Shown here piece after piece: positions 9,947-28,007 of a stretch of DNA of 64,000 bases. The DNA lies in assembly GCF_008728835.1 (NCBI RefSeq), contig NZ_CP042582.1, positions 4,943,001 to 5,007,000 on the forward strand. Reading direction: 5' to 3'. The position numbers were made by a program, and so were the translations under genes. The notes beneath the pieces were generated by a model that saw nothing but the letters and a program-made list of their open reading frames with translations, was not told the origin of the DNA and did no database searches. Position 1 is the stretch's first letter; each line of letters opens with the position of its first letter. Origin of the DNA: Hypericibacter adhaerens (GTDB taxonomy: Bacteria; Pseudomonadota; Alphaproteobacteria; Dongiales; Dongiaceae).

Positions 9947-10242
9947 GAGCGCGTGAAGAAATCGAGAGCACCACGCAAGGGCGTAGCAAACACTCAAGCC
10001 CCCTCCCCTTGCGGGAGGGGGTTGGGGGGAGGGGTGCCACGGACGCAGCTGGGGGCATCCCTGCGATCAATCACCGCTCTGGAGGCAGAAGGCCCAGACA
10101 GGGCGCCAAGCGAGCGAGCCCGAGCAGATCAGGCTCCGCTTATTTGCCAGGATCTCGCACGGCATCGCCCCTCCCCCTACCCCCTCCCGCAAGGGGAGGG
10201 GGCGAGAGAGTTCTTTGGCATCGCCGATTTCTTCACACGCTC
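9947..10242. mobile_element. 296-bp non-autonomous element (MITE-like), copy 1
   Basis: Bounded by imperfect terminal inverted repeats GAGCGCGTGAAGAAATCG (left) and its complement (right, one mismatch in 18). It sits inside a GTCATCCCCGC/GCGGGGATGAC palindrome and is flanked by direct GGAA copies at 9943-9946 and 10243-10246. The interior carries a second inverted pair built on CCCCTCCCCTTGCGGGAGGG, so the whole sequence can fold back. Open frames across it (for example 9953-10261) have no recognisable product. It fills most of the 9911-10289 gap. The terminal repeats match those of the IS at 26.5 kb in 15 of 18 bases. Confidence 0.75.
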
Positions 10243-18005: not shown

Positions 18006-18300
18006 GAGCGCGTGAAGAAATCGAGAGCACCACGCAAGGGCGTAGCAAACACTCAAGCCCCCTCCCCTTGCGGGAGGGGGTTGGGGGAGGGGTGCCACGG
18101 CCGCGTTCGAGGGCATCCTTGCGATCAACCACCGCTCCGGAAGCAGAAGGCCTGGACATGGCGCCAAGCGAGCGAGCCCGAGCAGATCAGGCTCCGCTTA
18201 TTTGCCGGGATCTCGCACGGCATCGCCCCTCCCCCTACCCCCTCCCGCAAGGGGAGGGGGCGAGAGAGTTCTTTGGCATCGCCGATTTCTTCACACGCTC
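18006..18300. mobile_element. 295-bp non-autonomous element (MITE-like), copy 2
   Basis: Near-identical over its whole length to the copy at 9947-10242, with the same GAGCGCGTGAAGAAATCG-type ends. It again sits in a REPIN hairpin loop. Here the flanking tetranucleotides are TTTC on the left and GAAA on the right, so they are complementary rather than a direct duplication, unlike copy 1. This suggests rearrangement between two hairpins after insertion, or insertion into an already altered site. Confidence 0.75.
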
Positions 18301-21647: not shown

Positions 21648-21727
21648 GTCACCCCCGCGAAAGCGGGGGCCCATCTCGATCCAACGCGCCGAGCGGAGAA
21701 ATGGACCCCCGCTTTCGCGGGGGTGAC
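21648..21727. repeat. REPIN doublet of 80 bp, C-class
   Basis: Two inverted 26-bp hairpins (21648-21673 and 21702-21727) with a 28-base spacer. Both carry the CCCCCGC/GCGGGGG stem and GAAA or TTTC loop. A partial third stem (GGCGGGGGTGAC) follows shortly after. It lies in the divergent region between an exporter gene and an AraC regulator. Confidence 0.88.
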
Positions 21728-24657: not shown

Positions 24658-25006
24658 GTCACTGTCGTCTCGACGCCTGGCCATCGCCTCCGCACGGTCG
24701 TCATCCCCGCGAAAGCGGGGATCCATCCTGATCCAGCGCGCCGAGCTTGGAGGTGGATCCCCGCTTTCGCGGGGATGACGATGGGGGTGCGCAGGGCGGC
24801 GACAATGAAGGAACGAAGGGAAGGAATATTGCGACGACTCCGCCCCCTTCCCCTCCATCGTTCGTTCTCGCATAATCGGCCCTGTCCCTGATCCGGCCGC
24901 CCCAGACCGGCGTCCGCGGTTTTTCGCTCGCAACCTGTCGCCGCTCATATCGCCGCCTGGGCGATGGCGGCGGACCTGTCGCGGGGTCCTGCCTCGAGGA
25001 GCTCCC
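24658..25006. other. 349-base intergenic region with REPIN
   Basis: Contains the REPIN at 24700-24779. The remaining 227 bases show no gene. GAACGA near 24810 and TCGTTC near 24865 could pair loosely. An SD (AGGAG) for the following aminotransferase lies at the end. Confidence 0.6.
24700..24779. repeat. REPIN doublet of 80 bp, T-class
   Basis: Inverted hairpins at 24700-24725 and 24754-24779 with a 28-base spacer. Both carry the ATCCCCGC stem with a GAAA or TTTC loop. The spacer (GATCCAGCGCGCCGAGC) is close to the one at 21.7 kb (GATCCAACGCGCCGAGC), so the doublet has spread as a unit. Confidence 0.9.
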
Positions 25007-26386: not shown

Positions 26387-26469
26387 GCCGCCGCCACGCC
26401 TTCCTTCCACATCCTCTCGCATCGCAGCGCAAGGCAGCGGAGCTGCGCTCCAACGTCATCCCCGCGAAA

Positions 26470-27938
26470 GAGCCTGTGAAGGAATTGCGATTGAGGTGAC
26501 GGCGTGATTCTCTGTCGTAAGGACGGAGGATGAGGATGGGCGGGGAAGCACGCTACCGAGAGGCGGATCGCAGCCAGCTACGCTGGGATTTGATCGACCT
26601 TGAGAGCCTGTTGCCAGCCGAGCATCGGGTCCGGGTGGTTTGGGCCTATGTGAGCGGGCTTGATCTTTCGGCGTTTTACGCGCGGATCGGGTCACGGGAA
26701 GGAACGGCGGGTCGTCCGCCGGCCGATCCGAAGCTCCTGCTGGGGTTATGGCTGTATGCGAGCCTGGAAGGGGTTGGTTCGGCGCGCCAGTTGGACCGGC
26801 TGTGCGAACGGGACATCGCCTATCGCTGGCTGTGCGGCGGGGTGGCGCTGAACTATCACGGTCTGAGCGACTTCCGCTTTGCTCACGCTGACCTGCTGGA
26901 TCAGCTTCTGAGCGAAAGCCTGACGGCGCTGATGGCGGAAGGTCTGATGGATGCGGCTGAGATCGCCATCGACGGGACGAAAGTGAGGGCCAGCGCCGGG
27001 AAAGGCTCGTTACGCAGTGAAGAGACATTGGTGGCGTTGGAGGAGGTGGCGCGTCGTCGGGTGGCTCGGCTGAAGGCGGAAGGGGAGAGCGAGCCTGGGG
27101 CGAGTGAGAGGCGGCGTCAGGCAGCGCAACGCCGGGCGGCCGAGGAGATTGCCGATCGGGCCGAGAGGGCGCGTCGCACGGCGGAGAAGCTGCGGGCCGA
27201 GAAGGAAGCCCGGGCCAAGCGCCACAAGAAGGAGGAAGCCAAGAAGGGGAAGCTGCGGGTCAGCCTGACCGACCCCGAGGCACGGCTGATGCGCTTTGCC
27301 GATGGGGCGATGCGGCTGGCCTACAACATCCAGCTCGCCGTGGCGCCGGCTTCGGGCCTCATTCTCGCCGCCCAGCCGACGGACCGGCGCAACGACAGGG
27401 GTCTGGCAGGGCTGCTGCTGCCCAGATCAAAGGCCGTCTTGGCCGGCTGGCGCCGCGCCTGCTGGTCGATACCGGTTACGCCACCCGCCAGGACATCGTG
27501 GCGTTGGCCGCCCAGCAGATCGAGGTCTATACGCCCGTCCCGCCCGACAAGCCGGATGCCACGCCCGAAAGCCAGCGCAAGCGCGCTTGGCGGCGCCGGC
27601 AGGAGCCCGAGGCGATCAAAGCCTGGCGCGAACGCATGGCCAGCGACAGCGGCCAGATGATCTATCGCCGTCGCTCCCGGATCGAGACGGTGAACGCCAT
27701 TCTCAAAGGCCGGGGCCTGGACGTGATACGGGTGCGGTCAATGGCCAAGGTTACCTGCATCGTGCTGCTACAGGTGCTCGCCCATAACCTCTGGTGCGCT
27801 CACCGCTTGCGCACCGCTACACCGTGAAAGAGGACCGTTCGAGCAGACCGGCGGATCACCGCCTATCCGGCTGAGCCCACGCTTTAAACCACGCCACGCG
27901 GAGCTCCTCCTCGCCCGCGGCGATTCCCTCACACTCTC
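26470..27938 (+). mobile_element. IS1182-like insertion sequence inserted in a REPIN loop
   Basis: 1469-bp element with terminal repeats GAGCCTGTGAAGGAATTG (left) and GAGAGTGTGAGGGAATCG (right, read inward). Direct copies of GAAA flank it (26466-26469 and 27939-27942). Removing the element and one GAAA restores a normal 80-bp T-class REPIN. The single transposase gene inside is shifted out of frame. The ends agree with the ends of the 296-bp element in 15 of 18 positions. Confidence 0.85.
26530..27827 (+). pseudogene. IS1182-family DDE transposase with a frameshift
   Basis: From an SD GGACGGAGG and ATG at 26530, frame 1 encodes an N-terminal transposase helix domain (LLPAEHRVRVVWAYV, GRPPADPKLLLGLWLYASLEG). 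The first catalytic Asp (EIAIDGTKVRASAGKG) and a charged insertion follow. Near 27429-27432 (CTGCTGCTGCCC-AG) the coding frame changes by -1. The product then continues as IKGRLGRLAPRLLVDTGYATRQDI (second Asp), then RRRSRIETVNAILKGRGL (catalytic Glu) to the stop at 27827. All DDE residues exist but in two frames. One missing C (CCCCAG to CCCAG) explains it; no canonical slippery heptamer was seen. Confidence 0.82.
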
Positions 27939-28007
27939 GAAAGCGGGGATCCACGTCAAATCTTGACGACCTGAATCAGGATGGATCCCCGCTTTCGCGG
28001 GGATGGC
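27939..28007. repeat. Right part of the IS-interrupted REPIN, T-class
   Basis: Contains GAAA-GCGGGGATCCA (27939-27953), a 28-base spacer and the complete partner hairpin 27982-28007. The left part (GTCATCCCCGC-GAAA) is at 26455-26469, on the other side of the IS. Together they give the standard 80-bp layout. Confidence 0.88.

Follow-up and report, generated by a model that had tools for sequence, protein, structure and literature searches.

The window, a stretch of 64,000 bp from the Hypericibacter adhaerens genome, contains an insertion sequence (IS) of 1,469 bp on the forward strand at 26470-27938, with the ends GAGCCTGTGAAGGAATTG and, in reverse complement, GAGAGTGTGAGGGAATCG. Its transposase gene (26530-27827, forward strand) lies in two frames, the first at 26530-27660 and the second ending at 27827, which are separated by a single frameshift near 27.42 kb. 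Both parts match the IS1182 model NF033551 (N-terminal part, 9.2e-74; C-terminal part, 1.5e-14), and the N-terminal score of 249 bits stays under the cut-off of 270 because the frame is split; matches to DUF772 and DDE_Tnp_1_6 were also found. The left end, GAGCCTGTGAA, is the same as in intact Rhizobium IS1182 members. By its transposase and its terminal inverted repeats the element belongs to the IS1182 family, as a defective member that has no single intact transposase frame, and it is the sole IS1182-family gene found in the 5.87-Mb genome. A relatives search at E 1e-30 returned no close intact relative of the transposase. Scanning genome contigs gave one match, from Reyranella sp. (47%), with ends resembling GAGG(T/C)TGT and flanks GCGGGCG-GGA and GGA-CACCCGC, which are suggestive, if imperfect.

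The IS interrupts a CGTC-type REP precisely at the 4-base loop, leaving GTCATCCCCGC-GAAA on the left and GCGGGGATCCA on the right. The outer half of the split REP, GTC-ATCCCCGC-GAAA, occupies 26455-26469 (forward strand) and ends in the first copy of the loop (26466-26469), directly left of the IS; the second GAAA (27939-27942), directly right of it, is followed by the inner half, GCGGGGAT-CCA, at 27943-27953 (forward strand), and the intact partner REP of the same REPIN lies on the reverse strand at 27982-28007. The coordinates thus confirm the original prediction that a duplicated GAAA, the loop of a REP hairpin, flanks the IS. When the IS and one GAAA are removed, coordinate arithmetic places the two REP starts 54 bp apart, as in the intact REPINs at 21651-21724 (starts at 21651 and 21705) and 24703-24776 (starts at 24703 and 24757) that served as geometry controls, and the restored REPIN measures 26+28+26 = 80 bp. 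The size and geometry expected of a "perfect 80-bp REPIN" are therefore right, the word "perfect" being slightly generous, as the outer arms differ at one base (GTCATC versus GATGGC). The restored REPIN, in an 82-nt stretch, folds as a single hairpin of -43.4 kcal/mol (z -12.7 against shuffles). With its GTC, 8-bp stem, 4-base loop, CCA tail and head-to-head dimer, the target is a CGTC-1 REP/REPIN. In the 864 kb (15% of the genome) from which our REP statistics are drawn, a strict outer-to-inner pattern detects 43 REPs, 39 of them with the loop GAAA and none with it in reverse orientation. REPINs are abundant in this genome and in a second genome of the genus, yet neither of the two has a match to a RAYT (Y1_Tnp, PF01797), so a RAYT-driven REPIN system is not indicated.

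Similar loops are occupied by 296-bp elements, two of which lie in the window on the forward strand, one at 9947-10242 with a 4-bp direct repeat GGAA and one at 18006-18300 with the flanks TTTC and GAAA, of the inverted-loop class discussed below. Both had been predicted, and a genome search with the 296-bp element places them in a family of about 20 copies, mostly 95-100% identical; no match was found on plasmids. As was also predicted, the right end of the small element equals the IS ends at 15 of 18 bases, and beyond these 18-bp ends no sequence is shared with the IS. The end pattern, with at most two mismatches allowed, occurs at 45 places in the genome (two for the reversed control), and in this search paired ends in the right arrangement were carried by the 296-bp copies and the IS only; no other transposon with these ends was found in the genome, so the prospect that the ends fit another transposase family better did not materialize. 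The small elements have IS1182-like ends, multiple copies, no transposase and, at 10 of 17 sites, direct repeats, and are thus non-autonomous MITEs of the IS1182 type.

The small element holds two inverted copies of a CCCCTCCCCTTGCGGGAGGGGG palindrome, at about 42-105 and 205-271 (9988-10051 and 10151-10217 in the window), and this palindrome is itself repeated at dozens more places in both genomes of the genus. Three small elements, at G000:C1:3406155-3407629 (L021/L030), 989603-991077 (L022/L031) and 5819544-5821017 (L024/L028), contain an identical 1,177-bp element, judged from its translation to be of the IS110 type, which sits in one of the two internal CCCCTTGCGGGAG palindromes. Two of these composites, each of 1,475 bp and in different REP loops, are one base apart; the whole composite may have transposed in one piece, and independent insertion at one preferred site is also possible. 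A GCCGGC palindrome at G000:C1:970704 (L128:704) contains a single GAGCGTGTGAAGAAATCA end, followed by unrelated repeats and an apparent IS110-type gene; this looks like an element that has decayed, or a different one that ends in the same way.

Both flanks are readable in 17 small elements, three of them interrupted by another IS, and all 17 sit at the loop of a REP-like palindrome, which bears out the proposal that the IS and the small elements share both ends and target choice. The stem outside the 4-base loop is at least 7 bp at 15 of the 17 sites, compared with 0.034% of positions in 864 kb of the genome. Recognizable REP arms with a stem of at least 5 bp are present at 16 sites, the weak one being L017 with a 3-bp stem. 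A partner REP about 46 bp away makes REPINs of the IS site and of six or seven small-element sites; by the search pattern used, the remaining sites contain one REP each. Thirteen of the 17 sites have a CGTC-type REP core, and the target stems vary (ATCCCCGC, ATTCCCGC, ACCCCCGC and ATGCCGGC); palindromes with a GCCGGC stem are rare in the sampled 864 kb, yet received three insertions in this genome. The junction CATCCCCGCGAAA|GAG occurs, among 385 genomes, in this genome only. In the same-genus genome the small elements are about 75% identical, have CTTC repeats and lie repeatedly in GCCGGC palindromes, though no IS1182 was found there. The search for a pre-insertion allele gave none: in that genome an unrelated gene fills the orthologous gap.

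The flanks fall into two classes. Perfect 4-bp direct repeats of the loop border 10 of the 17 small elements as well as the IS, and since the variant loops GGAA, TTCC, GAAG and CTTT are repeated in the same way, these are genuine target duplications. Seven copies instead carry NTTC on the left and GAAN on the right, with all four bases inverted in four copies, three of four in the remaining three, and no intermediate kind; loop duplication as originally proposed therefore accounts for the first class, while the seven copies that are not simple loop duplications had been missed. In six of the seven the inner (CCA) arm keeps the normal loop and the outer (CGTC) arm has the inverted one. The inverted class is scattered over several separate branches in a tree of the small elements, and L021/30 (direct) and L022/31 (inverted) differ at one base in 1,475, both of which place the cause at the time of each insertion or later. 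One copy in the same-genus genome (L172) is flanked by GAAG and CTTC in an outer-outer palindrome. Two other origins were discarded: a pre-existing target with an 8-base loop, such as TTTCGAAA, is represented by no REP in the 864 kb, and carry-over of donor flanks leads one to expect the opposite arrangement at ordinary REPs as well, which is not seen, and a single lineage, which the element tree does not show.

The inverted flank is explained most simply by use of the opposite palindrome arm as a template. One version, to which we give a little less than an even chance, is that the loop was inverted after insertion, by quasipalindrome template switching in replication and not during transposition. 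Insertion creates a very long quasi-palindrome in which the duplicated loop is the sole mismatch near the stem, and template-switch mutations in quasipalindromes are well known (PMC7202029). The scatter of the class over the element tree fits this version, and so does a decayed copy at 3900671-3900999, with the flanks GAAA and TTTC in an outer-outer arrangement and both ends derived from the right end, the pattern expected of a large switch. Two details are left unexplained by copying from the other arm, and weigh against template switching: five of six copies retain, without co-correction, the end mismatch at base 6, and wherever the inversion is imperfect the deviating base is the one adjoining the stem, which plain copying would not lead one to expect. 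Tentatively, and with distinctly lower probability, the inverted flank could instead be written at insertion, by repair on folded arms in an extruded cruciform or single-strand hairpin; the gap would be repaired before the arms unfold, with a stem arm extended from its free 3' end along the loop of the strand to which it belongs. Gap filling in the folded state and later template switching predict the identical inverted sequence, and the data fit both; if folded-arm repair were true, an inverted-loop flank would mark transposition into folded DNA. It is improbable that these flanks come from homologous recombination between inverted copies. Similar hybrid IS copies have been proposed for ISRm22 in REPs (PMC1525189), and L017, whose arms match poorly, may be a hybrid, but recombination of native copies would give inner-inner or outer-outer joins and so does not explain the six copies with one outer and one inner arm, nor is a reversed loop present in any of the 43 strict REPs sampled.

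Intact relatives in other genomes allow the choice of target to be viewed beyond this genus. Two other alphaproteobacteria (G314 and G081) have three intact IS1182 copies each, with ends TCAGAC..., and five of the six are bordered on each side by a full copy of a terminator-like hairpin of 18-25 bp; these hairpins have no common sequence, and one G081 copy carries different hairpins on its two sides. Rhizobium plasmids contain intact relatives, about 55% identical in the N-terminal half, with the left end GAGCCTGTGAATG and 3-bp repeats, TCA or TGA, three copies being located at a fixed point of a CCTCA-GGA-TGAGG repeat and others in weaker palindromes. The three copies in G360, with ends CTAGCAGCC, have no hairpin at their sites. 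Random insertion by intact relatives, which would have spoken against the original prediction, is not what the most informative ones show, the agreement being good in G314 and G081, partial in Rhizobium and absent in G360. Hairpin targeting is frequent, not universal, among the elements matched by the IS1182 model, and the G314 and G081 copies together with the published IS1272 make it a family theme. IS1182 members with GAGGCTGTGT-type ends (L048, L049, L056, L114 and L116, from several alphaproteobacteria) adjoin a common GTCCGCTAT/GGGTC motif, show 4-bp repeats of GACC or GGTC at copies with both ends visible, and are possibly another repeat-targeting subgroup.

The different stem sequences of the targets point to structure rather than one sequence as the cue, and together with the hairpins of the relatives they lead us to infer a folded target; recognition of a palindromic double helix fits the same data. 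It is rather unlikely that the transposase reads the REP sequence (e.g. the CCCCGC/GCGGGG stem) or a REP-bound protein, the hairpin being incidental. Such reading would suit the CGTC-type REP core shared by 13 of the 17 sites, which is abundant in the genome, and the entry of other IS families, including IS110, into REPs at fixed points (PMC1525189), but it sits badly with the rare GCCGGC-stem palindromes, used three times here and repeatedly in the same-genus genome, and with relatives that enter hairpins of no common sequence.

Our explanation as a whole, to which we assign a probability of about 0.78, comprises an IS1182-family transposase inserting at hairpin loops, MITE passengers and inverted flanks templated by a palindrome arm. 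The DDE transposase would recognize ends of the form GAGNNTGTGAAG...TNG and a short GC-rich stem folded with a 4-base loop. The two 3' ends of the element would then be joined at the 5' side of the loop, one on each strand, and gap filling would leave the 4-base loop duplicated; attack at this side as the source of the 4-bp direct repeat is suggested by standard DDE chemistry and the anatomy of the sites. In about 40% of the passengers, repair would be templated by the opposite palindrome arm, inverting the loop in one flank. The ends, the loop position, the direct repeats, the palindromic targets and the inverted-flank class are observed directly, and the cutting positions and templated repair are inferred. 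The IS in the window would be a dead copy, left by loop insertion into a REPIN.

Agreement in both the 18-bp ends and the target makes an IS1182 transposase the likely helper of the small elements, and their putative mobilization in trans is plausible. No intact IS1182 helper was found in this genome or the same-genus genome, and the role probably fell to a related IS, either unsampled or no longer present, rather than to the resident copy. Membership of the small elements in a different transposase family, with a coincidental match to the IS ends, is very improbable: similarity stops at the ends and the sole IS1182 copy is broken, but the 15/18 end match, the identical insertion geometry, the same REP loops and the restriction of paired ends to the IS and the small elements all speak against it.

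A transposon family thus appears to pick its landing sites by hairpin structure. Within one family three outcomes for the hairpin can be compared, namely replacement (IS1272, published), duplication of the whole (G314 and G081) and duplication of the loop only (this genome), which makes the reading of DNA secondary structure by a DDE transposase testable with defined targets. Here a small mobile element unrelated to REPINs uses them as landing pads, and the inverted-loop scars are a natural insertion series that records how the site was repaired.

Several known systems resemble parts of this one. IS1272 and TnSha1, of the same transposase family, target inverted repeats and terminator hairpins by structure (PMC5678879, PMC4923244), as the elements here appear to do. 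Both delete the hairpin wholly or in part, and staphylococcal IS1272 leaves no duplication behind (PMC5678879, PMC4923244), whereas the elements here keep both stem arms and have the loop on both sides. Wan et al. (2017) drew three outcomes for a cruciform attacked at different points, replacement, duplication of the whole stem-loop and duplication of the loop only (pathway c), their own data being replacement (PMC5678879, PMC4923244); five of the six G314 and G081 copies fit the second and the genome of the window fits the third. MITEPye1 of Paracoccus yeei, with ISPye18, is 159 bp long, is present in one to three copies per chromosome and, compared by description and not by sequence, resembles the 296-bp elements in its 18-bp IS1182-type ends, 4-bp direct repeats, intergenic location and alphaproteobacterial host; the main-text parts of that report do not describe hairpin or REP targets (PMC11578231). 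ISPsy8, ISPa11, ISRm22, ISRm19, IS621 and IS1397 enter REPs at a fixed position, which for ISRm22 is the axis of the palindrome (PMC1525189); the families treated in that paper are IS3, IS110, IS4, IS256 and IS5, and IS1182 is absent from its text. CGTC-1 REPs, with an 8-bp stem starting with AT, a 4-base loop, a CCA tail and head-to-head dimers (PMC3733652), are the same as the target in the window; their role is that of insertion site and not of mobile element. The literature searched, outside ISfinder and subscription journals, yielded no account of the REP-loop form, its copy number or the inverted flanks. Hairpin targeting by the IS1182 family was thus already known; what is new is the REP-loop variant, together with the inverted-loop flanks.
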